Of a DNA stretch of 22,498 nt, positions 2,857 to 22,470 are shown in pieces (within the stretch, counting starts at the first letter, position 1; each line of letters opens with the position of its first letter). The translations under genes were made by a program, and so were the position numbers. The stretch is from a virus. The stretch is taken from positions 1 through 22,498 of IMG/VR virus record IMGVR_UViG_3300035670_001325, one strand, 5' to 3'. The notes under the pieces were generated by a model. It saw only the letters and a program-made list of their open reading frames with translations, had not been told where the DNA came from and ran no database searches.

Positions 2857-2976
2857 TCACCAGTACACTGAGTCGGGGTTGATACGTCGGCGGCAATGCC
2901 AATTCGGTGGCGGCACTTCCCGCCAATCTAAGCCGCGACAATGCCAGAAAGACAGGCGACGCCATAGGCTACGCAT
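2857..2976 (-). CDS. 39-residue Trp/Cys-rich protein of unknown function
   Basis: I place the start at the ATG at 2976, which has GAGG about 9 bases upstream and overlaps the end of the HTH gene by 8 bases. A longer frame from 3057 would run far into that gene and is unlikely. The product has two similar WHCR elements (SFWHCRGLDW and PNWHCRRRIN) in 39 residues, giving two Cys, two His and several Trp. Metal binding is possible but two Cys and two His in this spacing match no classical zinc finger I know. Confidence 0.45.
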   Translation of the reverse strand: MRSLWRRLSFWHCRGLDWREVPPPNWHCRRRINPDSVYW

Positions 2977-3175
2977 GGGGCGTACCTCGCAGCCTGTAAC
3001 GGGCGTAGCGCTTGCCGTTAGTGGTTTCGGTGCTGCACTCAATATCCATGCCCTCACGCCTTAAATCGGCCACGCGAGCGGCTAGGCGGAAGCACCCAAA
3101 GTCTTGCAGGGCGTCAAGCGGGGTAAGAGACCGCCCTGATAACAGGGCGACCTTGATTGCTTCATTCTGCGACAT
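2969..3175 (-). CDS. Helix-turn-helix protein (HTH_39-like)
   Basis: A 68-residue protein. The core ALLSGRSLTPLDALQDFGCF followed by RLAARVADLRREG is the pattern of the small winged-helix family common in phages: LTPLDAL is the helix before the turn, and RLAARVADLRR the recognition helix. The tail (YARYRL) would form the wing. GGAGA precedes the ATG by about 10 bases. These proteins presumably bind DNA; specific targets are generally not known. It is the only recognisable DNA-binding regulator in the window, so it is the first candidate for the dyads in the adjacent control region, but nothing in the sequence links them directly. Confidence 0.75.
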   Translation of the reverse strand: MSQNEAIKVALLSGRSLTPLDALQDFGCFRLAARVADLRREGMDIECSTETTNGKRYARYRLRGTPHA

Positions 3176-4411: not shown

Positions 4412-4440
4412 TGTTAGTTACTCCGCTGTTTGTTTTGTAA

Positions 4441-4477
4441 ACAATTCGATTGTACATACCTATTTATAGTTGGTAAA
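4441..4477 (-). promoter_or_regulatory. Leftward promoter with operator-like dyad over the -10
   Basis: Reading the minus strand, TTTACC (4477-4472) and TACAAT (4454-4449) are separated by exactly 17 bases, a good sigma-70 match with a strong -10. The predicted start point is near 4442, leaving a leader of about 30 bases before the GTG at 4411. The perfect dyad ACAAT-TCG-ATTGT (4441-4453) covers the -10 box and the start point, so a bound protein would block the promoter. This is the only promoter in the control region I find convincing. Confidence 0.55.
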
Positions 4478-4721: not shown

Positions 4722-4812
4722 GTTGCAAAAAAGCAACTGGCTACGCATACGTTGCATCCACGCAACATAGGATCGGCTGTTGCGTAAACGCTACATGTTG
4801 CGTCCAGACAAC
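4722..4812. promoter_or_regulatory. Array of four 16-bp dyads, GTTGC-N6-GCAAC
   Basis: Sites begin at 4722 (spacer AAAAAA), 4751 (ATCCAC), 4779 (GTAAAC, right arm GCTAC) and 4797 (GTCCAG, right arm ACAAC). The first two are perfect and the last two have one mismatch each. Distances between starts are 29, 28 and 18 bases. A further degenerate copy, TTTGC-GTCCAG-GCTTG, begins at 4855. Constant arm and spacer lengths with varied spacer sequence are the pattern expected for a dimeric DNA-binding protein, either as a multi-site operator or as origin iterons. Two more perfect copies occur at 16956 and 17117. Confidence 0.65.
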
Positions 4813-4816
4813 ATCA

Positions 4817-4828
4817 TGTAAACAATTC
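4817..4828. repeat. 12-bp direct repeat TGTAAACAATTC (second copy)
   Basis: The same 12 bases occur at 4436-4447, where they overlap the dyad and start point of the leftward promoter. Here the copy abuts the right end of the GTTGC dyad array and is followed by two TCGTTTGC words 23 bases apart (about 4829 and 4852). Related AAACAAT/CGTTT sequence recurs near 5024. It may be a binding site of a second regulator. Confidence 0.4.
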
Positions 4829-4923
4829 TCGTTTGCATAACTACATGAGAATCGTTTGCGTCCAGGCTTGTGGTACACGCACAACAATTCCCGTGCCAAA
4901 ACGAAGGGGGGGTAGGGCCAGGG

Positions 4924-4937
4924 CGTGACCGGTCACG
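4924..4937. promoter_or_regulatory. 14-bp perfect palindrome CGTGACC/GGTCACG
   Basis: A spacer-free perfect palindrome just before the AT-rich stretch. Perfect 14-bp palindromes without loop are poor RNA hairpins but typical protein-binding sites. No second copy was noticed in the window. Confidence 0.4.
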
Positions 4938-4949
4938 ATTACGAAAGGC

Positions 4950-4966
4950 TCACAAAAATTTTGTGA
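4950..4966. promoter_or_regulatory. AT-rich palindrome TCACAAAA-A-TTTTGTGA followed by a T-tract
   Basis: Eight-base perfect arms around one base, followed on the plus strand by ATTTTTTTTAATTT. The stem is too AT-rich and loopless for a strong terminator, though the T-tract is suggestive. Together with the flanking A/T tracts it could be an easily melted or bent element, as in origins, or an operator. Confidence 0.35.
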
Positions 4967-5061
4967 ATTTTTTTTAATTTGTACACACATCATCCGTACA
5001 TCCTTTACTTACCCCTTTCCCTAATAAACGATTGTTTGGTAACCTTTACTGGCAACGTCTG

Positions 5062-5207
5062 ACCAGATGCGCTGGTAGCGACCGAGAGGTAACTGAAGGA
5101 AAGGACTCCACCATCTAAGGCACTAAACGTATCCCTAGACGCTTCCGCCTCGGCACACAGGCTCCACGGTAGTTGGAGATCGCGGCCTCCCGATGGGACA
5201 ATCCCAT
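5062..5207 (+). other. Three small hairpins upstream of the late operon
   Basis: Inverted repeats ACCAG-N5-CTGGT (5062-5076), CTCCA-N7-TGGAG (5162-5178) and ATGGGA-CAA-TCCCAT (5193-5207) lie in the ~190 bases before the first late gene. They could be a structured 5' leader of the rightward transcript or part of a small RNA. No tRNA fold or riboswitch class is recognised, and a minus-strand frame across this stretch lacks a credible start. Confidence 0.25.
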
Positions 5208-5253
5208 ACGTTGCTACTTTCCTTCTCGCCAAACCTTCTGTTACATTCCCCGC

Positions 5254-5457: not shown

Positions 5458-5920
5458 GTCGATCCCTTTTAAGCCTCGGGAACTGAAAGCCTCTCAGGAG
5501 GTTTTGGATAAGATTTACGAGGCTGCCAAACTTGGGCTTAAGGGTGATGCCCTAGCCTTTGCTGCGGACATGCTGCCGACCGAGTATCGTAGGCTCTGCC
5601 AGATGGATGGGGCGGCTGCTATCGCGGAGGCAAAGGGTCGTGCTGACAGTGAATTTGAGGCGGCAAACCAGTTGCGCGTGGCGGCTCTTGGTGGCGATAG
5701 CAAGGCAGCACTTGCTCTGTTGCAGCACGTGCATGGGTGGGTCGCTAAGACCCAGGTGCAAGTCGATGTTAAATCGCAAATCAGTATCATCGCGGCGCTG
5801 CAAGAGGCGGAATCCCGCGTTATTCAGGGTCGAGTGGTGTCGGATACACCGCCTGCACTGACGCACGAACCCGCTAAACGTCTGACGCTGGAGCCAGAGC
5901 GTGCAACTGCCGATCTATAG
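5444..5920 (+). CDS. terS: Terminase small subunit
   Basis: A 158-residue protein from a GTG at 5444 with GAGGA at 5434-5438. The N-terminal half contains an HTH-like helical region (EVLDKIYEAAKLGLKGDALA, then MLPTEYRRLCQMD) followed by a long helix IAEAKGRADSEFEAANQLR and AALGGDSKAALALLQHVHGW, an arrangement I recognise from phage small terminases. Small terminases oligomerise, bind the packaging-initiation site and feed DNA to the large subunit. It directly precedes, and overlaps by 20 bases, the large-subunit gene, which strongly supports the call. Confidence 0.75.
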   Translation: METFRSIPFKPRELKASQEVLDKIYEAAKLGLKGDALAFAADMLPTEYRRLCQMDGAAAIAEAKGRADSEFEAANQLRVAALGGDSKAALALLQHVHGWVAKTQVQVDVKSQISIIAALQEAESRVIQGRVVSDTPPALTHEPAKRLTLEPERATADL

Positions 5921-7424
5921 CGCCGAAGAAGAAGAGTTGCTGATGAGCAAACTCTGGTCGCCGTCCATTAAGGACGACCCAGAGGCTTTCGTACTGCTCG
6001 TCTTTCCGTGGCAGAAGAAAGGCACCCCGCTAGAGCATTTCCACGGCCCCCGTAAGTGGCAGCGTGAAGTGCTGCGGCAGGTATCTGCCCACATCAAAAA
6101 GAACAAAGAAGCGACCGCGTTTGAAGTCTTGCGTATGGCTACGGCTTCCGGTCGCGGTATCGGTAAGTCTGCGCTCGTCTCGTGGCTCATCCTCTGGATG
6201 CTAACTACGCGCATAGGCTCGACGACCATTGTGTCGGCTAACTCAGAAGCGCAGTTGCGCTCGATCACATGGGCAGAAATCACTAAGTGGGCAGCGCTCC
6301 TAATCAACTCGCATTGGTTTGAGATCAGCGCTACCCGCGTGATGCCCGCTAAATGGATTGCTGAACTTGTTGAGCGCGACCTTAAGAAAGGCACCCGTTA
6401 CTGGTCTGTCGAAGGTCGCCTTTGGTCAGAAGAAAACCCCGACTCGTATGCCGGTGTCCACAACCACGACGGCGTGATGGTCATCTTTGACGAAGCCTCG
6501 GGTATCCCTGACCCCATCTGGTCTGTGACCGCAGGCTTCTTTACTGAAAACACGCCAAACCGTTTCTGGTTTGCGTTTAGCAACCCACGCCGAAACGAGG
6601 GCTATTTCTATGAGTGCTTCAACGCGAAAAGGAATTTCTGGACGACGCAAAGCATCGACGCCCGCCAAGTCGAAGACACCGACAAAGCGGTCTACGAGCA
6701 AATCATCGAAGAGTACGGCGCGGACTCCCCGCAAGCCCGAATCGAAGTGTATGGACAGTTCCCCACCGATGGAGACGACCAGTTCATCCCTCCAAGCCTG
6801 GTGGACGAAGCAGCGACTCGCCCTAAGTACAAAGATGAAACTGCTCCGATTGTATTGGGCGTTGATCCGGCTCGAAGCGGTAATGACTCGACGGTCATTG
6901 TGGCGCGTCAAGGCCGCGATATTGTCGCGATTAAGCGCTATAAAGGCGAAGATACAATGGAGATCGTCGGGCGAGTAATCGACGCTATCGAAGAGTTCCG
7001 CCCTGCGCTTGTCGTCCTTGACGAAGGTGGCCTCGGCTACGGCATCTTGGATCGCTTGAAAGAGCAGCGGTACAAGGTGCGCGGCGTCAACTTTGGCTGG
7101 AAGTCGTCAAAGCCTGCCATGTGGCAGAACAAGCGTGCAGAGATGTGGGGCGACATGCGCCAGTGGCTACGCACCGCCTCGATACCGAACGAACGACTGC
7201 TGAAGTCCGACCTCTGTAGCCCGCAGTACAAGACGAACTCTTCGGGTGCTATAGCGCTGGAAGCCAAGAAAGACATGAAGGCTAGGGGTCTCGCCTCGCC
7301 TGACGCAGCAGATGCGTTGGCGGTCACTTTCGCGTACCCTGTTGCAAGTCGAGAGTCAAGGGTTAAAATGGAACGCAAGTCTTATGGGCGCGGCGAGATG
7401 CTCTCGTCGTGGATGGGTGCCTAG
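5901..7424 (+). CDS. terL: Terminase large subunit (ATPase-nuclease)
   Basis: A 507-residue protein from a GTG at 5901. The ATPase domain has Walker A ASGRGIGKSA (about 82-91), Walker B VMVIFDEASG (192-201) with the catalytic Glu198, and a coupling-type FSNP (226-229). The RNase H-like nuclease domain shows GVDPARSGND (Asp322), VVLDEGG (Asp374) and SPDAADALA (Asp468/Asp471), the expected three acidic positions. The enzyme pumps DNA through the portal into the procapsid and cuts it at the end of a headful or at specific sites. Length and motif order are normal. The following gene starts with GTG directly after its stop. Confidence 0.95.
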   Translation: MQLPIYSAEEEELLMSKLWSPSIKDDPEAFVLLVFPWQKKGTPLEHFHGPRKWQREVLRQVSAHIKKNKEATAFEVLRMATASGRGIGKSALVSWLILWMLTTRIGSTTIVSANSEAQLRSITWAEITKWAALLINSHWFEISATRVMPAKWIAELVERDLKKGTRYWSVEGRLWSEENPDSYAGVHNHDGVMVIFDEASGIPDPIWSVTAGFFTENTPNRFWFAFSNPRRNEGYFYECFNAKRNFWTTQSIDARQVEDTDKAVYEQIIEEYGADSPQARIEVYGQFPTDGDDQFIPPSLVDEAATRPKYKDETAPIVLGVDPARSGNDSTVIVARQGRDIVAIKRYKGEDTMEIVGRVIDAIEEFRPALVVLDEGGLGYGILDRLKEQRYKVRGVNFGWKSSKPAMWQNKRAEMWGDMRQWLRTASIPNERLLKSDLCSPQYKTNSSGAIALEAKKDMKARGLASPDAADALAVTFAYPVASRESRVKMERKSYGRGEMLSSWMGA

Positions 7425-8044: not shown

Positions 8045-8184
8045 TGCCTCTCGTTAAATCGTCTTCCAAGGCTGCCTTCCGCAAGAACATCAAAGCGGAA
8101 GTGAAGTCGGGTAAGCCGGTCAAACAGGCCGTTGCCATCGCGTATTCGGTCAAGCGTCGAGCAGCAGCAAAGAAGCGCAAATAA
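8044..8184 (+). CDS. 46-residue basic protein with KQAVAIAYSVKRR motif
   Basis: ATG 8044 overlaps the upstream stop, and its TAA overlaps the portal ATG (TAATG at both ends). The sequence begins MPLVKSSSKAAFRKNIKAEV and has GKPVKQAVAIAYSVKRR, a motif seen in many tiny phage proteins that lie next to portal or terminase genes. It ends in a Lys/Arg tail. The function is unknown. It is short enough to be skipped by standard length cutoffs, but the coupling and conserved motif make it credible. Confidence 0.7.
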   Translation: MPLVKSSSKAAFRKNIKAEVKSGKPVKQAVAIAYSVKRRAAAKKRK

Positions 8185-10343
8185 TGGCTAAAGACCCTAC
8201 AGGCATTAAAGGCGCCGGTTACGTCGCCAACACGCCGCAATCCCGTCGCGGAAAGGACTCTGCTGACATCCTAGCGCAAGCGCGTACACGGATGATGCTG
8301 TCCCTGACTGCGTATAGCGAATCCCGTGACAGCGAACTGGACGACCTGCGCTTTATGGCAGGTTCGCCGGACAACCGCTGGCAGTGGCCGCAGGAAGTGC
8401 TGGCAACCCGTGGTGCCGTGCAGGGTCAGACGATCAATGCGCGTCCCTGCCTAACCATCAACAAACTGCCCCAGCACGTTCGGCAGGTCACTAACGACCA
8501 GCGCCAGAACCGTCCCTCGGGCAAAGTCATTCCGGTTGATGACAAGGCGGACATTGAAGTCGCTGAGATTTTTGACGGTATTGTCCGTCACATCGAGTAC
8601 ATCTCGGACGCCGACGTCGCCTATGACACCGCGTGCGAGAACCAGGTTACCTACGGCGAAGGCTATATCCGCATACTGACCGAGTATTGCGACGACAACA
8701 CCTTCGACCAAGACATTCGCATCGGACGTGTGCGAAACTCGTTCTCGGTCTACATGGACCCGCACATCCAAGACCCCTGTGGTTCAGATGCCGAGTGGTG
8801 TTTCATAACTGAGGACATGCCCCGTGAGGAGTTTGAGCGTCATTTTCCTGACGCCGAGCCAATCTCGTCGATCCAGCAGCGTGGTGTTGGTGACGAGAAT
8901 TTGGCGCAATGGATTACGGATGACTCCGTTCGGATTGCGGAATACTTCTACGCTTACTACGAAAAAGCGAAGTTAAACCTCTATCCGGGGAACCAAACGG
9001 CGTTTGCCGGGTCACCCGAAGCCAAGCAGTTGGAAATGATGGGCTTGCAGTCCGTTCGCAGCCGCGAAGTGGACATTCGCCGCATCAAGTGGATCAAGAC
9101 CAACGGCTACGAAATCCTTGAAGAGCAAGACTGGCCGGGTAAGCACATCCCGGTTATCCGCGTTGTCGGAAACGAGTACGAAGTAGAAGGTCGCATTTAC
9201 ATTAGCGGCCTCGTACGCAACGCTAAAGACGCCCAGCGCATGTACAACTACTGGGTGTCCCAAGAGGCGGAAATGCTCGCCTTGGCCCCCAAAGCGCCGT
9301 TTATCGGTTATGGCGGGCAGTTCGAGGGCTACGAGCATCAGTGGAAGACGGCTAACACGCAGAACTGGCCGTACCTTGAGGTCAATCCTGACGTAACTGA
9401 CGGCGCTGGCAGCATGTTGCCGTTGCCGCAACGTGCGGCGCCACCCCTTGCACAGACGGGTCTGATTCAGGCTAAGATGGGGGCGTCGGACGACATCAAG
9501 GCCACCACTGGCTACTATGACTCTAGTCTCGGCGCCACGTCTAACGAGCGTTCGGGCAGAGCCATTTTGGCGCGTGAACGACAGGGCGACACGGGGTCTT
9601 ACCACTACGTTGATAACTTGGCCCGCGCTGTTCGCTACGTCACGCGACAGTTGGTGGACTTGATTCCGAAAATTTACGACACCCAGCGTATTGCTCGCAT
9701 CATCGGTATTGACGGCGAGACGGGCACGGTGCGTATTGACCCGATGCAGCCGGAGCCTGTCCGCAAGATCGTGGACCAGGCCGGTGTTGTCATCGAGAAG
9801 ATTTACAACCCGTCTGTCGGTAAGTACGACGTGGCTGTAACGACTGGCCCGTCCTACCTGACCAAGCGTCAGGAAGCGATGGAAGCCATGTCGCAGATTC
9901 TCCAGGCTAACCCAAATCTCTGGCAGGTGGCTGGCGACTTGTTCGTCAAGAACATGGATTGGCCGGGTGCCCAAGAGATCGCCAAGCGTCTGGCTAAGAC
10001 GATTGACCCCAAACTCCTTGCTGACCCGGATGAAGACCCGGCGTTGCAGGCCGCTAACCAGCAGATTGAGGTTATGGGCCAAGAAATGCAGATGATGCAG
10101 GAGATGCTCCAGCGCGTATCGCAGTCGATGGAAGCCACGGAACTGCGTATCAAGGAGCAGGAAGCGGCCATCAAGGCTTACGACGCCGAAACCAAGCGCA
10201 TTAGCGCCGTGCAGGCTGGCATGTCTGAAGAGCAGATTCAGGACATCGTTATGGGCACGATTTCGGGTATGATGTCAAGCGCAGATTTAATGCCCACGGA
10301 AGTTCCACGTGAAACTCCGCAAATGGGCGAGGGAATGGTATGA
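8184..10343 (+). CDS. P22-type portal protein
   Basis: A 719-residue protein, close to the 725 of P22 gp1. Recognisable stretches include LDDLRFMAGSPDNRWQWP near the start, RPCLTINKLPQHVRQVTNDQ, the stem/wing region YGEGYIRILTEY, and the adapter-like SNERSGRAILARERQGD. A long C-terminal coiled coil (about 615-690; QQIEVMGQEMQMMQEML and following) corresponds to the barrel helix of P22-type portals. The portal ring occupies one vertex, is the channel for packaging and ejection, and is the docking site for terminase and later gp4. It overlaps the following gene by ATGA. Confidence 0.93.
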   Translation: MAKDPTGIKGAGYVANTPQSRRGKDSADILAQARTRMMLSLTAYSESRDSELDDLRFMAGSPDNRWQWPQEVLATRGAVQGQTINARPCLTINKLPQHVRQVTNDQRQNRPSGKVIPVDDKADIEVAEIFDGIVRHIEYISDADVAYDTACENQVTYGEGYIRILTEYCDDNTFDQDIRIGRVRNSFSVYMDPHIQDPCGSDAEWCFITEDMPREEFERHFPDAEPISSIQQRGVGDENLAQWITDDSVRIAEYFYAYYEKAKLNLYPGNQTAFAGSPEAKQLEMMGLQSVRSREVDIRRIKWIKTNGYEILEEQDWPGKHIPVIRVVGNEYEVEGRIYISGLVRNAKDAQRMYNYWVSQEAEMLALAPKAPFIGYGGQFEGYEHQWKTANTQNWPYLEVNPDVTDGAGSMLPLPQRAAPPLAQTGLIQAKMGASDDIKATTGYYDSSLGATSNERSGRAILARERQGDTGSYHYVDNLARAVRYVTRQLVDLIPKIYDTQRIARIIGIDGETGTVRIDPMQPEPVRKIVDQAGVVIEKIYNPSVGKYDVAVTTGPSYLTKRQEAMEAMSQILQANPNLWQVAGDLFVKNMDWPGAQEIAKRLAKTIDPKLLADPDEDPALQAANQQIEVMGQEMQMMQEMLQRVSQSMEATELRIKEQEAAIKAYDAETKRISAVQAGMSEEQIQDIVMGTISGMMSSADLMPTEVPRETPQMGEGMV

Positions 10344-13537: not shown

Positions 13538-13788
13538 TGAAGACGTATCAATTACTCGGCATTGACACCGCAATCCATCTGCTGCGCCCCGGTGCGAAAT
13601 GGGAGTGGACGGGTGGCTTGGGCTTTACTCGATGGGACGATCCGCGACCGCAACCGTCCGTTGAGGAAGTCATGGAGACGATTGAAAAGATCAAAGCCTT
13701 TGAGGACAGCATCAACACCATTTTGCTGCCCGAGCAAAAGAAGGCGTTTGACGAGTATGTTGAGCAGATTGAACAGGCGGCAGCGTGA
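13537..13788 (+). CDS. 83-residue protein, possible tail-fibre assembly/XkdW-like
   Basis: ATG overlaps the previous stop (TAATG). It contains WEWTGGLGFTRWDDPRPQPS followed by a helical region VEEVMETIEKIKAFEDSI and an acidic/Gln-rich end. The pattern of an N-terminal strand-rich segment with a conserved WDDP motif and a C-terminal helix resembles small tail-associated proteins such as XkdW, which lie next to tail fibres. The match is weak and by eye. It overlaps the oxygenase gene as GTGA, so the two are probably coupled. Confidence 0.55.
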   Translation: MKTYQLLGIDTAIHLLRPGAKWEWTGGLGFTRWDDPRPQPSVEEVMETIEKIKAFEDSINTILLPEQKKAFDEYVEQIEQAAA

Positions 13789-14387
13789 TCACTTACAACC
13801 TGTTCCCCACAGCAGTTGCCAAGTTTGAACTCGGACGGGACTACACCGCCGAGGAACTAGCATTTGTGGGCGAGCAGCCGACTCATAGCAATATGGGCAA
13901 CACGACCAGCGACGACCGTTATGTGCTGCGGCACGACACGATGGCAAGCCTCAAGGCGTTTGCTGAGGCCAGCGTCAACGAGTACCTGCGCTCGATCTAC
14001 GCGCCGAAACACGACGTATCGCTGCGTCTGACGCAATCGTGGCTGAACTACACGAAGGCCGGTCAGTATCACCACAAGCACGCTCACCCAAACTCGTTCG
14101 TGTCTGGGGTGCTGTACCTCAAGGCTGCCCGCGAGCGCGACAAGATTTACTTTTACAAAGACGGTTATCAGCAGGTCAAACTGCCGACTGACAACTACAA
14201 CGTTTACAACAGCGATTCGTGGTGGTTCGAGGTTGGTGCGGGCGATCTGATGCTGTTTCCGTCTAGCCTGACTCACATGGTCGAAACCGTGCAGGGCGAC
14301 GAGCGGGTATCATTAGCGTTCAACACATTTCCGGTCGGCTATGTTGGCGAGGAAGAAAGCCTGACCGCATTGCACTTGAAGGAGTAA
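13785..14387 (+). CDS. Putative 2-oxoglutarate/Fe(II) oxygenase
   Basis: A 200-residue protein starting with GTG. It has the landmarks of the 2OG-FeII_Oxy_5 family: HHKHAHPNSFVSGVLYL (His99 and His101 region, probable metal ligands), then LMLFPSSLTHMVETV (His164) and DERVSLAFNT (Arg174, probable 2OG contact). Such proteins sit within tail-fibre modules of many marine and freshwater phages; the substrate is not known. Possible roles are hydroxylation of a fibre protein or of host surface components. Length and motif spacing are normal, so an active enzyme is likely. Confidence 0.8.
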   Translation: MITYNLFPTAVAKFELGRDYTAEELAFVGEQPTHSNMGNTTSDDRYVLRHDTMASLKAFAEASVNEYLRSIYAPKHDVSLRLTQSWLNYTKAGQYHHKHAHPNSFVSGVLYLKAARERDKIYFYKDGYQQVKLPTDNYNVYNSDSWWFEVGAGDLMLFPSSLTHMVETVQGDERVSLAFNTFPVGYVGEEESLTALHLKE

Positions 14388-14755: not shown

Positions 14756-14758
14756 GTG

Positions 14759-16954
14759 ATGAGTACCATTAAGATTTCGCAACTGCCTGATGCTACCCAG
14801 CCGTTAAGTGGCAGCGAACAAGTGCCGCTTGTTCAAAGCGGAATCACCAGAAAAACGACTGTTTCGTCGCTTGGTAACGCAATTACTCCCAAGCAATTTG
14901 GTGCAGTGGGTAACGGAGTAGCCGATGACACGGCTGCTATCCAGGCTTGTTTGGCCGCGCAAAAACCCGTGGATTGGCAAGGACTGACGTACAAGATTAC
15001 GGCGCCTATTCTGCAAGCCTGCACAAGCAACGTAATATGGATGGGTAACGGCGCAACGATTGTATATGTGCCTGCTGCTCACACCGAGTATGCGATCCGC
15101 CTGACCAACGCAGTTGTTATTGATTACAACATCAATGACATCACGATCAATGGCTCCAAACTCTGCAACAAGGTGCTAGAGGTTCTTAGCACTAGCGGGT
15201 TGCCGACGCCAGCGCCTAACTTTACAGCGACTAATTTGTTCGTTGAGCAAGCCAAGCGCCTTAATACGTTTAACGGCGGCAACGGAATTCACATTCGTGG
15301 GTCGTTTGACACCGTAGCGTTTTACGGTGGCGGTGCGCGTGACTGCGAATTGCCCGCTGGACAAGGAACGCCTGGCGTTATTGGCATGACTGGTATTGCC
15401 ATTGATTGGTACAGCGTTTCGTCTTTTGCCCGCCGAGCGTTGTTCAGTGGCGTTACTGTTCTAAAAATCTACAGTTCCGACCTTGCTTACAACAGTGACC
15501 AAGACGGCATAGCCTATTTTGTGCCGGATGAAAGCGTTGGCGGCAACAAAGTTCGTTCGCAGTTCTGGTGCGGTGACGCTAGCATTTTTGCTAACTGTTA
15601 TGGCCGATCCATCAAGACGCAATGCCTTGAGACTGTTGTAGAGAACTGCCAATTCAACAAATCAGAAGGCTTGACCGCTGGCGGCAACGTCGAGGTGGAC
15701 GCGCAAACTGGCGGGTTAATGATTAGCGGGTGTTTGTTTAAGTACACCGATGGCAACCAACCGGGCGTCTGCGTCAACATTTCTAGCGGCGCTGGGTATG
15801 GCAACCCCAGTATGTATGTGATGGGGAACCGCGTATTTCTGGACGCAGCCACGACGCTTAACATCTTCGCGCAAGCGTTTCCAAGAGATGGGTATTTCGG
15901 CGCGATTGAGGTGTCCGGTAACAACATCTACGGAAAAACCAAAGAACTTTGCGACATCTATTGCAACGGCGATATGACGCAAGTGGTGGCGTCTAACAAT
16001 TTTATAAAAGAGATTGTTAACGGCCCGAGCAGCGCAAAAGCCATGGTGTATTTCCGGTCTTATTCAATAAGCCCCTACTTTGCTTACCTTACGGCAAACA
16101 ACAACGTTTACGACGACACTCATGCGCCAAAGTTGATGTTAAGTGACGTTTCCGGCGTGAGTATGAGTGCCGAAGTGTCTGGTACTAACAATTTAGGGTT
16201 TGAGTCGTCGTTGGTTGTTATGACCACGACTGCTGCAAACGAGGTTACAACCTCGGGCACACAAGATTTAGTGCTGTCCACGAAAAGGGGTGTCGACTCT
16301 GGCAAGATCACGATTCGTGATGGCGCTAACCAAAATATACGAATTGAGCCGAACGGTACTGGTCAAACTGTACTCACGGGTCGCGCGTCTTTTGGCACGT
16401 CAGTAGCCGCTGCCCTTGAAAGGGTTGTGATTTCCGGGCCTCTTAATAGTGACTCGGCAACTTCGTATGGGCTGCGTATTACGGCAACGATCCCGGCTGC
16501 TACAACGTCGGGGGCGTTTTATTTCCGAACTGCTGCCAATACGGAAGATGCAGCATTTACGGTAGCCAGTATTGCCCACTATCTTGCAGATCAGTCAACC
16601 GTTTCTGGCGGCTCTCGATTACAGCCCACCAATCAATATGGATTCTGGGCTGGAGATACACTGATTGGAGCAGCCAATAACTATGGCTTTTTCTCCGATT
16701 TGCCTGCTGCCACCGGTCGCTGGAACGTCTATTCCAACGGGACAGCGCCTAACTTTTTCCGTGGTGCAACAGTTGTTGGATCATCTGCGCTGGCTACAAA
16801 TGCCACAGACGGGTTTCTTTACATTCCGACTTGTGCGGGAACGCCTACAGGCACCCCGGCCTCGTATGGAAGTACCGCCCCGTTGGTGGTTGATAGCACC
16901 AATAACAAGTTGTACTTCTACAGCGGCGGCACTTGGCGTGACGCTGGGCCGTAA
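14759..16954 (+). CDS. Tailspike/tail-fibre protein with pectate-lyase-like beta-helix
   Basis: A 731-residue protein from the ATG at 14759 (AGGAG at 14748-14752); a GTG three bases earlier is possible. Residues 1-40 (IKISQLPDATQPLSGSEQV) look like a virion-attachment module. Then comes KQFGAVGNGVADDTAAIQAC (about 46-65), the hallmark opening of pectate-lyase-3 type right-handed beta-helices found in tailspikes. The central 300-400 residues are Gly/Asn/Val-rich coils with repeated short strands. The C-terminus has a Gly/Ser/Thr-rich beta region ending TNNKLYFYSGGTWRDAG. Such proteins bind and sometimes hydrolyse host surface polysaccharide; catalytic residues cannot be identified by eye. Confidence 0.8.
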   Translation: MSTIKISQLPDATQPLSGSEQVPLVQSGITRKTTVSSLGNAITPKQFGAVGNGVADDTAAIQACLAAQKPVDWQGLTYKITAPILQACTSNVIWMGNGATIVYVPAAHTEYAIRLTNAVVIDYNINDITINGSKLCNKVLEVLSTSGLPTPAPNFTATNLFVEQAKRLNTFNGGNGIHIRGSFDTVAFYGGGARDCELPAGQGTPGVIGMTGIAIDWYSVSSFARRALFSGVTVLKIYSSDLAYNSDQDGIAYFVPDESVGGNKVRSQFWCGDASIFANCYGRSIKTQCLETVVENCQFNKSEGLTAGGNVEVDAQTGGLMISGCLFKYTDGNQPGVCVNISSGAGYGNPSMYVMGNRVFLDAATTLNIFAQAFPRDGYFGAIEVSGNNIYGKTKELCDIYCNGDMTQVVASNNFIKEIVNGPSSAKAMVYFRSYSISPYFAYLTANNNVYDDTHAPKLMLSDVSGVSMSAEVSGTNNLGFESSLVVMTTTAANEVTTSGTQDLVLSTKRGVDSGKITIRDGANQNIRIEPNGTGQTVLTGRASFGTSVAAALERVVISGPLNSDSATSYGLRITATIPAATTSGAFYFRTAANTEDAAFTVASIAHYLADQSTVSGGSRLQPTNQYGFWAGDTLIGAANNYGFFSDLPAATGRWNVYSNGTAPNFFRGATVVGSSALATNATDGFLYIPTCAGTPTGTPASYGSTAPLVVDSTNNKLYFYSGGTWRDAGP

Positions 16955-16955
16955 T

Positions 16956-17011
16956 GTTGCATTGGCGCAACTTGTAAGTTAAAGTTTAACCGTACTGGTG
17001 CGTTTCACCAG
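16956..17011 (+). promoter_or_regulatory. GTTGC-N6-GCAAC dyad and hairpin before the scaffold gene
   Basis: This 75-base gap is among the longest in the late operon. It contains a perfect copy of the control-region dyad (16956-16971, spacer ATTGGC) and a hairpin CTGGTG-CGTTT-CACCAG (16995-17011). A weak sigma-70-like pair, TTGCAT (16957-16962) and TAAAGT (16980-16985) with 17-base spacing, would put the dyad on the -35 box. This may be an internal, regulated promoter for the head genes. The promoter match is weak; the dyad match is exact. Confidence 0.45.
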
Positions 17012-17029
17012 GTTTCCGTAAGGAATGTT

Positions 17030-17812
17030 ATGTCGGACGAAAACGTAGTCCCTGAAGTTGTAGCGGAAGTACCCGCGCCGGAACCGGCGGTCACGGCTGC
17101 CCCGGAACCCGAAGTCGTTGCGGAAACGCAACAGCCGGAGGAAAAGCCAGCCAAATCGTTCACTCAAGAAGAGTTGGACGCGATGGTCGGCAAGAGGCTT
17201 GCCCGAGAGCGGCGCAAGTGGGAGAGAGAGCAGGCGCTTAAGGCCCAGCCGACACCGGCTGAGTCAGTCGCCCTGCCTAGCAAGGAAGAAGACCCGGAGG
17301 GTTACGCAGAGGCTTTGGCCGAGCGTAAGGCTGCGGAACTTCTCGCCCGACGCGAGGCAGAGCGTGAGCAGCAGGCTCTTCTGATGGCTTATCACGACCG
17401 TGAAGAAGCGGCTAGGGAACGGTATGACGACTTCGAGCAAGTCGCATACAACCAAAACCTAGCCATTACGGCTGTGATGGCACAGACGATTCAGGCTTCG
17501 GAAGTAGGACCGGATATTGCTTACTATCTCGGCTCTAACCCCCGCGAGGCTGATCGCATTTCTCGGATGTCGCCGTATATGCAAGCAAAGGAAATCGGGA
17601 AGATTGAGGCCAAGTTGGCTGACAATCCCGCCCCGGTAAAAAAGACAACCAGTGCGCCACCGCCGATTAAGCCTGTCACGGCAAAAGGCACTAGCGCCTC
17701 GGTCTACGACACGACGGACCCACGGTCAATTTCGGCCATGAGTGCGTCAGAGTGGATTGAGCGCGAACGCCAGCGACAGATTAAGCAGTGGGAAGCGCGT
17801 CGTAACCGCTAA
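17030..17812 (+). CDS. Scaffolding protein
   Basis: A 260-residue protein with AGGA 5 bases before the ATG. It has an acidic/Pro N-terminal tail rich in PE and VAE, a long charged coiled coil (about 45-130; ELDAMVGKRLARERRKWE and following), a helical middle, a linker KKTTSAPPPIKPV, and a basic C-terminal helix WIERERQRQIKQWEARR. This composition, size and position directly before the coat protein are typical of P22-type scaffolding, whose basic C-terminus binds coat. It would shape the procapsid and leave before or during packaging. Confidence 0.8.
   Translation: MSDENVVPEVVAEVPAPEPAVTAAPEPEVVAETQQPEEKPAKSFTQEELDAMVGKRLARERRKWEREQALKAQPTPAESVALPSKEEDPEGYAEALAERKAAELLARREAEREQQALLMAYHDREEAARERYDDFEQVAYNQNLAITAVMAQTIQASEVGPDIAYYLGSNPREADRISRMSPYMQAKEIGKIEAKLADNPAPVKKTTSAPPPIKPVTAKGTSASVYDTTDPRSISAMSASEWIERERQRQIKQWEARRNR
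17117..17132. promoter_or_regulatory. Perfect GTTGC-N6-GCAAC dyad inside the scaffold gene
   Basis: Spacer GGAAAC, close to the GTAAAC of the imperfect site at 4779. It lies 161 bases after the site at 16956, within codons for VVAETQQ. The coding sequence alone could produce it, but an exact match to the same 16-bp pattern next to another copy is suggestive of a paired site. Confidence 0.4.
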
Positions 17813-17832: not shown

Positions 17833-19041
17833 GTGGCTAATACACTTCTTACTATTGACATGATCACGCGGAAAGCGTTGGAGATTCTTGAAAACAATCT
17901 CGTGCTGACCCGCAATGTTAACCGCCAGTACGACGACTCCTACGCCGTCGAAGGCGCCAAGATCGGCACCACGCTGCGTATCCGCTTGCCGGACCGCGCT
18001 CTCGTGACCGACGGTGCTGCCCTCCAGGTGCAGGACGACAACGAGCAGTTCACCACGTTGACCGTTGCCTCGCAGAAGCACATCGGCGTGAACTTTACGA
18101 CTGCCGAAATGACCATGCAGTTGGACGACTTTGCCGAGCGCGTGCTGAAGCCGCGTATCAGCCAGTTGGCCGCCAGCATCGACGCTGACGTTGCTAACTC
18201 GTTCAACGGTATCTATCAGTCTGTCGGCACCCCCGGCACGACCCCCAGCAGCACCGCTGTTCTTCTCGCTGCCCAGCAGAAGTTGAACGAGGCCGCCGCT
18301 GTGATGTCGCCGCGTTATGTCACCGTGAACCCGGCTGCAAACGCCGCGCTCATCGAGGGCATGAAGGGCTTGTTCAACCCGGTCAGCACGATCTCGGCGC
18401 AGTTCAAGAACGGCATGTTTGGCGAAGGCATCCTTGGGTTCGAAGAACTTAACATGTCGCAGTCGATCAAGCAGTTCACGACCGGCAGCCGCGCTGCGGC
18501 CAGCGTTTCGGTCAAGGGCACGGTGTCCACTCAGGGCGCTTCGACCATCACCCTGAACGGTGTGACGGGCGAAACCTTGAAGAAGGGCGACGTGTTCACG
18601 ATTGCAAACGTCTACGCTGTGAACCCGCAGACCCGCGAGTCCACTGGTTCGTTGCAGCAGTTCGTGGTGACGGAAGACATCACTGCCGCTTCGAGCGAGT
18701 ACGTGAACGTTAAGATCAGCCCGGCGATCTACACCTCGTCGCACGCGTTGGCGACCGTCAACTCGTTCCCGCAGAACTCTGCGGCTGTGACGTTCCTTGG
18801 CGGCGTGTCCACCCAGTATCCGCAGAACCTCGTGTACCACCGCGACGCGATTGCGTTTGCCACGGCTGACCTCCTGCTCCCGCAGGGCGTTGACATGGCT
18901 TCGCGTCAGGTCCACAACGGTATCTCCATGCGCGTTGTCCGTCAGTACGACATCAACAACGACCGTATGCCGTGCCGTATCGACGTGCTGTATGGCTACT
19001 CGGTGATTCGTCCGCAGATGGCCGTGCGCCTCTGGGGCTAA
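17833..19041 (+). CDS. P22-type major coat protein
   Basis: A 402-residue protein from a GTG at 17833 with GGAG about 9 bases upstream. Recognisable P22 coat features are the start NTLLTIDMITRKALEILENN, the HK97-like core, an inserted beta-rich domain in the middle (about 220-310; VSVKGTVSTQGASTITLNG and GDVFTIANVYAVNP), and the C-terminal YHRDAIAFATADLLLPQG with SMRVVRQYDINNDRMPCRID. It is the shell-forming subunit, assembled with scaffold. Its length is slightly below the 430 of P22. Codon use is strongly C/G-ending compared with the tail genes, fitting high expression. Confidence 0.93.
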   Translation: MANTLLTIDMITRKALEILENNLVLTRNVNRQYDDSYAVEGAKIGTTLRIRLPDRALVTDGAALQVQDDNEQFTTLTVASQKHIGVNFTTAEMTMQLDDFAERVLKPRISQLAASIDADVANSFNGIYQSVGTPGTTPSSTAVLLAAQQKLNEAAAVMSPRYVTVNPAANAALIEGMKGLFNPVSTISAQFKNGMFGEGILGFEELNMSQSIKQFTTGSRAAASVSVKGTVSTQGASTITLNGVTGETLKKGDVFTIANVYAVNPQTRESTGSLQQFVVTEDITAASSEYVNVKISPAIYTSSHALATVNSFPQNSAAVTFLGGVSTQYPQNLVYHRDAIAFATADLLLPQGVDMASRQVHNGISMRVVRQYDINNDRMPCRIDVLYGYSVIRPQMAVRLWG

Positions 19042-20201: not shown

Positions 20202-20915
20202 ATGGCAACCACCGCTGCTGACCAGATCAACGGTGCGCTGCGTCTGATCGGGCAATTGGCAGAAGGTGAAGTGCCTTCGGCAGCCACGTCTCAGGACGCC
20301 CTCACTGCCCTCAACCAGATGCTTGACTCGTGGAGTACGGAGCGTCTGGCCGTCTACTCGACCCAAGATCAAGTCTATAACTGGCAGCCTAACGTCCGCA
20401 CCATTACGATGGGGCCGACGGGTACGTTCGTTGCCGAGCGTCCAATTCTGATGGATGACGCAACTTACTTCCGTGACGCCTCGACCAACGTGTCGTATGG
20501 CATCAAACTGATCAACAACGAGCAATACAACAACATTGCCGTTAAGACAGTAACCTCAACTTATCCACAGTTAATGTGGGTCAACATGACCTACCCAGAC
20601 GTGGAGATTTACATCTATCCGGTGCCGACCAAGGTGCTGGAGTTTCACTTTGTGTCGGTGCGCCCGCTGACTCAGCCTGCTGCGCTAGATACAAACCTTG
20701 CGTTCCCGCCGGGATACCTGCGTGCGTTTCGATTTAACTTGGCCTGCGAACTCGCAGCCGAGTTTGGCGTGGAACCTTCGCCGCAGGTGCAGCGCATTGC
20801 GATGTACAGCAAGCGCGACTTGAAGCGCATCAACAACCCGGATGACTTGATGGCAATGCCAGCGGCACTGATCGTCAACCGTCCAAGGTTCAATATATTC
20901 ACAGGAAATTTCTAA
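20202..20915 (+). CDS. P22 gp4-like tail accessory/head-completion protein
   Basis: A 237-residue protein. Features of the P22 gp4 family are the start AADQINGALRLIGQLAEGE, the DALTALNQMLDSWSTERL helix, YPDVEIYIYPVPT, FPPGYLRAFRFNLACELAAE and the end NRPRFNIFTGNF. In P22, gp4 binds below the portal ring after packaging and seals the DNA, with a peptidoglycan-hydrolysing activity reported for P22 gp4. It is longer than P22 gp4 (about 166 residues), as is common in related phages. It is followed by gp10 as in P22. Confidence 0.85.
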   Translation: MATTAADQINGALRLIGQLAEGEVPSAATSQDALTALNQMLDSWSTERLAVYSTQDQVYNWQPNVRTITMGPTGTFVAERPILMDDATYFRDASTNVSYGIKLINNEQYNNIAVKTVTSTYPQLMWVNMTYPDVEIYIYPVPTKVLEFHFVSVRPLTQPAALDTNLAFPPGYLRAFRFNLACELAAEFGVEPSPQVQRIAMYSKRDLKRINNPDDLMAMPAALIVNRPRFNIFTGNF

Positions 20916-20917
20916 GT

Positions 20918-20950
20918 ATGTTTAAACGCATGCTTGGAGAAGAAAATTGA
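20918..20950 (+). CDS. 10-codon micro-ORF before gp10
   Basis: ATG 20918 reads MFKRMLGEEN and stops at TGA (20948-20950) overlapping the gp10 TTG as TTGA. Together with AGGA near 20902 and the strong GGAGA inside it, it may couple translation of gp10 with its rare start, or be fortuitous. Confidence 0.25.
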   Translation: MFKRMLGEEN

Positions 20951-22470
20951 AGACGCCAATTTTGGGCTCGTCTTATGTGGTCCGGTCCGTAAACGCGGCG
21001 GACAACCTGTTAATTAATCTTTATCCAGAAGTGGTGCCCGAAGGCGGCAAGGAACCCGCGTACCTGCAACGCTGCCCAGGCATGACGTTGAAGGCTACCG
21101 TGGGCACCGGCCCTATTCGTGGCGTCTACAGCCTTGGCGACTACCTGTACGTCGTGTCGGGCACAGAGTTTTACCGCCTGACAACTGCGTATGTTGCCAA
21201 CAAGATTGGTGATGTGACGGGCACCGGCCCGGTGTCAATTGCTGACAACGGAACGCAGTTATTTATAGCCTGCAATCCTGACAGTTATATCTACAACACC
21301 AGCACGTTGGCGTTTGCCCAGATCACCGACCCGGACTTTCCGGGCGCCGTGAATGTGGGCTACCTTGACGGTTACTTTGTGTTCAATGAACCGAACTCGC
21401 AGAGAGTATGGGTCACAGCCTTATTGGATGGGCTGTCGATTGACCCCTTGGATTTTGCGAGTGCGGAGGGTTCACCAGACGGGCTAGTCTCTCTGATCAT
21501 TGACCACCGTGAAGCGTGGCTGTTTGGCACGAACTCGGTGGAGGTCTGGTACAACTCGGGCGATGCCGATTTCCCCTTGTCCCGCATCCAAGGCGCTTAC
21601 AACGAGATCGGTTGTATTGCCCCCTACTCGGTCGCCAAGATGGATAACTCTGTCTTTTGGCTAGGCGCAGACGCTCGCGGTCAAGGCATCGTTTATCGAG
21701 CGCAGGGTTATCAAGGTGTGCGCGTATCTACGCACGCCGTAGAGTTTGCCATTCAGGGTTACAGCAACTTGGCCGATGCGGTGGGCTACACCTACCAACA
21801 AGACGGTCACACGTTCTATGTACTGAACTTTACCGACGCCGACACGACGTGGGTATATGACGCTGCTACGGGGGCGTGGCACGAACGCGCAGGGTTTGCG
21901 AAAGGCGACTTTACGCGCCACCGTGGTAACTGCCATGCGCGGTTTAACGGCGAGCCGGTGTTGGGCGATTACGAGAACGGCAAGTTGTATGCGTTCGACT
22001 TGGACGTGTACTCGGACGCTGGCGTAACGCAGAAGTGGCTACGTCGCTGGCGTGCGTTAGCGCCGGGTAGCAACGATCTTAAACGCACGGCTCACCACTC
22101 GCTTCAAATTGACTGCGAGACTGGCGTTGGCCTAGACGGCTATGCGCTAGAGGATTATCAATATCTAGGGTCAGAATCGCTGCAAATACTTGACACCGAA
22201 AGCGGCGAAAACATTATTTTGGAATACACGCCTGTTACGGGCGCTAACCCGCAGTTGATGCTGCGCTGGTCGGATGATGGCGGCCACACTTGGAACGGTG
22301 AGCGTCAAGTCTCGATGGGGCGCATAGGTCAGTATGGTACCCGAGCCATATTCCGCCGCTTGGGCATGACGTTAAAACTGCGCGACCGTGTGTACGAAAT
22401 CAGCGGCACTGATCCGGTAAAGGTCGCCATTATGGGTGCCGAACTGCAAATCAGCGGCACCAATGCCTGA
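20947..22470 (+). CDS. P22 gp10-like packaged DNA stabilisation protein
   Basis: A 507-residue protein; P22 gp10 is 472. The start is TTG 20947 with GGAGA at 20936-20940. It begins KTPILGSSYVVRSVNAADNL with LYPEVVPEGGKEPAYLQRCPG, the typical opening of this family, and continues with beta-propeller-like strands (YLDGYFVFNEPNSQRVWVTA, AWLFGTNSVEVWYNSGD, DNSVFWLGADARGQG). The C-terminus (SQVSMGRIGQYGTRAIF region, and RLGMTLKLRDRVYEI) is also typical. In P22 it binds gp4 below the portal and, with gp26, stabilises packaged DNA. Overlaps the next gene by 8 bases. Confidence 0.88.
   Translation: MKTPILGSSYVVRSVNAADNLLINLYPEVVPEGGKEPAYLQRCPGMTLKATVGTGPIRGVYSLGDYLYVVSGTEFYRLTTAYVANKIGDVTGTGPVSIADNGTQLFIACNPDSYIYNTSTLAFAQITDPDFPGAVNVGYLDGYFVFNEPNSQRVWVTALLDGLSIDPLDFASAEGSPDGLVSLIIDHREAWLFGTNSVEVWYNSGDADFPLSRIQGAYNEIGCIAPYSVAKMDNSVFWLGADARGQGIVYRAQGYQGVRVSTHAVEFAIQGYSNLADAVGYTYQQDGHTFYVLNFTDADTTWVYDAATGAWHERAGFAKGDFTRHRGNCHARFNGEPVLGDYENGKLYAFDLDVYSDAGVTQKWLRRWRALAPGSNDLKRTAHHSLQIDCETGVGLDGYALEDYQYLGSESLQILDTESGENIILEYTPVTGANPQLMLRWSDDGGHTWNGERQVSMGRIGQYGTRAIFRRLGMTLKLRDRVYEISGTDPVKVAIMGAELQISGTNA

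Follow-up and report, generated by a model that had tools for sequence, protein, structure and literature searches.

The question raised by this locus is whether a short dyad that is clustered in a control region of a phage genome, and found again 12 kb away at the start of the head scaffold gene, has the same function in both places. The window analyzed here is a whole record of 22,498 bp, a fragment of the genome of an uncultivated podovirus, i.e., a P22-like bacterial virus, of which the closest named relatives, as judged from the capsid protein, are MW202483 (81% identity) and Phage DSL-LC05 (71% identity). The genes and sites that are discussed below are listed in Table 1. The tail cassette of the window also harbors a 2OG-Fe(II) oxygenase gene (13785-14387), and MW202483 has one beside its scaffold gene.

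Table 1. Genes, predicted sites and RNA elements of the window, with the basis of each assignment
Feature	Position	Strand	Basis or remark
Winged-helix protein, 68 aa (best candidate binder)	2972-3175	-	HTH_39, PF14090, E 4e-11
Array of four dyads	4722-4812		Exact: 4722-4737, 4751-4766; one mismatch: 4779-4794, 4797-4812
Terminase	5901-7424		Family match
P22-type portal	8184-10343		Family match
Tail gene	14756-16954	+	Family match; last gene of the tail cassette
Dyad GTTGCATTGGCGCAAC (GTTGC-ATTGGC-GCAAC), proposed operator	16956-16971		Exact match; intergenic
Predicted promoter, TTGCAT (16957-16962), 17-nt spacer, TAAAGT (16980-16985)	16957-16985	+	Position and comparison with relatives
H-type RNA pseudoknot	16989-17011	+	Covariation; 16989-16992 with 17001-17004, 16995-17000 with 17006-17011
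Hairpin TTCC-GTAA-GGAA, includes Shine-Dalgarno AAGGA (17020-17024)	17014-17025	+	Leader comparison
Head scaffold gene	17030-17812	+	Family match; ATG at 17030
Dyad copy GTTGCGGAAACGCAAC	17117-17132	+	Exact match, within scaffold codons V-A-E-T-Q
P22-type major capsid protein gene	17833-19041	+	Family match
Connector genes	20202-22470		Family matches

A search of the whole record identified GTTGC-N6-GCAAC at 4722, 4751, 16956 and 17117 only, i.e., four exact copies as compared to 0.03 expected from dinucleotide shuffles, none of which reached four. The initial annotation, which had pointed to two additional exact dyads with the arms and spacing of the array, was thus right in its coordinates. 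It had also described these copies as flanking the start of the scaffold gene, which obscures a difference: the dyad at 16956 is intergenic and begins two bases 3' of the tail-gene stop (its start 74 nt and its end 58 nt 5' of the scaffold ATG), and that at 17117 is found 87 nt inside the scaffold open reading frame; the two copies are not equivalent. With a weight matrix derived from the array sites of relatives alone, the window being left out, 16956 ranked second and 17117 third among the positions of the window (with a gap between the weakest array site, at 16.4, and the next non-site, at 13.7). A scattering of the motif over a complete genome, which had been named as an observation that would speak against a specific function, was not seen: G001, a near-complete relative of 37.7 kb, contains four exact sites, of which two belong to its array. 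Upstream of a tail gene in G001 (32278-32293; also in L018, at 7391) there is an exact motif copy, GTTGCCTACTGGCAAC, for which a hairpin is suggested rather than an operator because the arms extend (GTTGCC/GGCAAC) and the matrix score is low.

A search for relatives of the terminase yielded 80 loci. Those closest to the window carry arrays of the same motif, composed of two to seven sites and located 1-2 kb upstream of the terminase, and an exact motif copy is missing from the entire records of most other relatives. The array sites of relatives are found at fixed places with respect to a conserved anchor, GTGGTACACGCACAAC (about -141, -119, -91, -73 and +21), and 30 distinct sites define a 16-bp palindrome, roughly GTTGC[AG][TC]NN[AG]CGCAAC. 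Near-identical dyads are thus clustered in one control region and kept in relatives, as in arrays of the lambdoid type (OL/OR of lambda, P22 and 434), where several near-identical palindromes of ~16 bp reside between divergent gene groups. In contrast to the lambdoid arrays, that of the window is found on the terminase side rather than next to a repressor or cro gene (in G001 the Cro-like gene is at 14125-14298 and the array at 6009-6166), and an additional site resides on the predicted promoter of a structural gene 12 kb away.

The region surrounding the array has additional features. Two copies of a sequence that starts with TGTAAACAATTC (4436-4462 and 4817-4843), at a distance of 381 bp from each other, bracket the array region, and downstream of the array (at about 4915-4950 in the window) a run of G is followed by a conserved palindrome, GTGACCGGTCACG, which is found in all array relatives. 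A non-coding block of ~170 nt (5050-5222), with the array on one side and the terminase genes on the other, is near-invariant in 12 relatives, displays a few compensatory stem changes (CTCCA/TGGAG versus CTCGA/TCGAG) and has hairpin-like insertions in L114 and L115; it is possibly a structured RNA or a packaging site, and a comparison with Rfam gave no credible match for this block and its folding energy no signal (z 0.7). In the equivalent divergent region of MW202483 (L165, 28264-28579) the GTTGC dyads are replaced by several TGTTTA-N2-TAAACA dyads, which suggests that the operator specificity shifts between relatives.

An array that is found upstream of terminase genes, as is often the case for cos or pac sites, and in which no convincing sigma70 promoter was identified, could instead be a packaging or replication site composed of small-terminase or initiator sites, with 16956 as a stray or secondary copy. 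We regard this scenario as improbable because the putative small-terminase gene is also found, at 74% identity (71% coverage), in the record G013, which has no array, and because the leader copy is located over the promoter position in many genomes. The small terminase was thus rejected as the array binder.

The scaffold-gene leader in which the dyad at 16956 is found can be compared across relatives via a block, GTAAGTTAAAGTTT, that 11 leaders share. All 11 carry GTTGC at the same distance, and the right arm is exact in nine and ACAAC in two, a variant that is also found in arrays. For these 11 leaders and two more found via the motif, the identity is 31% in the upstream 30 bases, which belong to differing tail genes across relatives, 100% in the left arm, 42% in the 6-base spacer, 89% in the right arm and 81% in the next 20 bases. 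Because the arms are conserved around a free spacer, 16956 has the properties of a symmetric protein site. The leader spacers also match the array spacers in base preference, far better than shuffled or random spacers do (P<5e-5), a preference that differs from that of a -35 box, and the leader site of G005 ranks fourth by the matrix in its record. Among the records that cover both regions, the leader dyad is found in three of the four with an array (the window, G005 and, with one mismatch, G001) and in 0 of 18 array-less records of at least 30 kb, where the array records are akin to one another and the counts are not independent; G004 has an array and no leader dyad, and several close relatives (L013, L014 and L111) are also without it. 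From these comparisons of sequences, the data indicate that 16956 is a candidate operator, to which the array-binding protein would also bind. The earlier proposal of one regulator for both regions is thus supported at 16956, where the conserved arms with a free spacer, the spacer preference, the shared ACAAC variant and the co-occurrence with the array all point in this direction, and not at 17117.

The dyad at 16956 is found exactly where homology among relatives begins, directly after a stop codon. Such a position would suit, as an alternative to a protein site, an RNA hairpin that ends the transcript of the tail genes or a boundary at which the tail cassette recombines. This explanation appears very unlikely. 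At 16956 there is neither a U-tract nor a terminator call, as would be seen for an intrinsic terminator, and the arm changes (GCAAC to ACAAC) are uncompensated; on these grounds a terminator or RNA hairpin was rejected. A boundary would leave unexplained both the free spacer within conserved arms and the shared spacer preference, and no dyad copy is found at the other end of the tail cassette.

The dyad overlaps the -35 element of the predicted scaffold promoter. In the leaders of 68 relatives the mean sigma70-type promoter score is 8.0, compared to 4.9 for shuffles, where the consensus used may not be that of the host. Scores above 6 are found in 53 of the 68 leaders and in none of the coding controls, the strongest promoter being TTGACA-17-TATATT, and in most relatives the signal is found at a constant distance from the ATG. 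We propose that the phage protein that occupies the array would also take 16956 as a symmetric site. A separate scaffold/capsid transcript would start at this promoter, behind the exchangeable tail-fibre cassette, and the bound protein would cover the spacer between -35 and -10, and would hold the scaffold promoter closed for as long as the regulator is neither removed nor titrated away. Of the possible effects, repression is the most likely because, as judged from the geometry, the dyad is centered ~28 nt upstream of the likely transcription start. Dimeric proteins that bind between -35 and -10 usually block the polymerase, and activator sites are usually found at or upstream of -41. The promoters score lower in the dyad clade (6.1-9.2) than in the TTGACA relatives (up to 14.5), as would be expected if the regulator activates, rather than represses, a weak -35/-10 promoter in this clade, but the position of the dyad center between these two elements makes activation an unlikely outcome. 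Control of the capsid genes, which had been suggested for the distal dyads, is supported in the sense of a proposed operator at the scaffold promoter; evidence was found for neither insulation nor DNA looping, which had been suggested as well.

The candidate operator also resembles known activator sites. As in the sites of CII and P22 C1, TTGC half-sites are found six bases apart near a -35 element. However, CII-type sites are direct repeats (the P22 C1 site is TTGCGAGCACTTGC), whereas the half-sites at 16956 are inverted and the left arm is itself the -35; no TTGC-N6-TTGC direct repeat was found in either dyad region. Because of the inverted repeat and the different geometry, a CII/C1 activator site was rejected. 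The sites of P2 Ogr and P4 Delta are also dyads that control phage late genes, but there the half-sites are 12 bases apart and centered near -55, as compared to six bases apart and a center at about -28 for 16956, and this assignment was rejected as well.

The copy at 17117 is found in a different setting. It is exact in seven homologous scaffold genes, which belong to one clade, with one synonymous difference, in the spacer, and the adjoining codons are conserved to about the same degree. In five relatives that carry the leader dyad, the N-terminus of the scaffold is different and the copy at 17117 is missing, and L111 has this copy in the absence of an exact leader dyad. Both distal copies could nevertheless be operators, with 17117 as an auxiliary site that would form a 161-bp loop with 16956 and act jointly with it, in the manner of lac O2, which likewise resides within a gene (lacZ), 3' of the operator at the promoter. 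The rank of 17117 with the matrix from the arrays of relatives, its exactness in the seven scaffold genes and its spacer, which fits the array preference, are all in line with such a function. Unlike lac O2, however, the copy is lost when the coding sequence changes, and its restriction to one homologous clade, its absence from five relatives with a leader dyad and its presence in L111 make an auxiliary operator doubtful. The suggestion that 17117 is a second operator is thus not supported; this copy is scaffold coding sequence and its match to the motif is probably incidental.

The candidate binder of the array and of 16956 would be found among the gene products that follow the array. In a comparison of gene content, the winged-helix gene was found in 10 of 10 array records and in 0 of 30 others, and it is part of the leftward gene group, which starts beside the array; a comparison of the protein with PDB sequences gave no match. 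A P22_Cro/YdaS-like protein is found in five array records and is absent elsewhere, where the remaining array records end before the place of its gene in the gene order. No strong site was identified near the Cro-like gene of G001. This protein follows the array, yet its own gene is without nearby sites, and it was therefore rejected as the first candidate. Based on gene content and site positions, the winged-helix protein would be the better candidate and the Cro-like protein stays second.

Between the promoter and the ATG, relatives harbor the sequence ACCG-TA-CTGGTG-CGGT-T-CACCAG or a variant thereof, which forms an H-type pseudoknot. When the window leader was folded by minimum energy, no signal was obtained (z 0.01); because the folding program cannot form pseudoknots, covariation was used instead. 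In 66 leaders, changes on both sides are found for all ten pseudoknot pairs (79 cells, compared to 18 when shuffled; 0 of 500 shuffles reach this number), the pseudoknot helix by itself gives 22 cells compared to 4.6, and sliding of the pairing partners abolishes the covariation signal. A full Watson-Crick pseudoknot, counted strictly, is found in 31 of the 66 leaders (0.5 expected); the first helix of the window itself (16989-16992 with 17001-17004) has one mismatch, ACCG with CGUU. The Shine-Dalgarno hairpin just 5' of the ATG is found in 50 of the 66 leaders (7 expected). In the compensatory changes of its helices, the scaffold leader behaves as expected of a structured cis-regulatory RNA.

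Of 18 records searched with a covariance model, 17 contain the element, with a single match in each except for G017, which has a second, weak one. The matches are found at the scaffold start wherever coordinates were compared, and MW202483 is below the threshold. Two phages outside the training set are recovered as well, Thalassomonas phage BA3 and, with a weak match at the expected place, MW202520. No family of Rfam 15 matches the element. In a scan of 15 distant phages, some of which are near-duplicates, the strict version identified the pseudoknot in three of 15; with the loop limits then relaxed by one base each, and with matched shuffles and background, it was found in nine of 15 (0.3 expected in shuffles; background 15 in 1726 windows). 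These nine include the isolates BA3, VvAW1, X14, vB_ValP_FGH and PAE2, and their pseudoknot helices differ (AACCG/CGGTT, AAGC/GCTT, GGC/GCC, CCG/CGG). Because the pseudoknot is retained in L080, L082, L083 and L026, where the promoter signal is weak or absent, the element is more than a transcript end. In P22, where the gap between the portal and scaffold genes is 13 nt, neither the dyad motif nor the pseudoknot was found.

The leader RNA probably controls translation of the scaffold gene. The transcript would begin at or just before the pseudoknot, followed by the hairpin around the Shine-Dalgarno sequence, which would offer a second, translational control of scaffold; the pseudoknot together with the partly sequestered ribosome-binding site would most likely determine how much scaffold protein is made. 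Autogenous leader pseudoknots are found for T4 gene 32 and for ribosomal protein S15, and the element described here is, similarly, an H-type pseudoknot in the mRNA leader for an abundant protein; in contrast to these, it belongs to a different gene family and has no match in Rfam. A scaffold-leader pseudoknot was not found described in open-access papers. By analogy with P22, for which autoregulation by the scaffold has been reported (Wyckoff and Casjens 1985, as cited in PMC5744158), unassembled scaffold protein would most likely feed back on the leader. This comparison is made to the scaffold gene of a phage of the same capsid type, but one in which the pseudoknot is absent.

Taken together, we consider it reasonably probable that 16956 is an operator on the scaffold promoter that is shared with the array, that the RNA pseudoknot leader is a second control and that the copy at 17117 is incidental. 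The proposed operator would then provide a further, clear example of a structural-gene promoter that is reached by the regulator of a control array 12 kb away. We know of no answer, at the level of an RNA site, to how the dose of scaffold is matched to that of the coat protein, and a compact, covarying RNA that is fixed to the scaffold start makes this question directly testable; the element is found in the isolates Shewanella phage X14, Thalassomonas phage BA3, Vibrio phage VvAW1 and Pseudomonas phage PAE2. A wider reading, which we put forward tentatively, is that a new RNA element, i.e., an H-type pseudoknot and a downstream Shine-Dalgarno hairpin, through which scaffold limits its own translation, is common to P22-type phages from several groups of bacteria, and that one clade adds a transcriptional lock. 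If true, the early/late array regulator and the RNA element would constitute a two-tier control of timing and dosage in capsid assembly.
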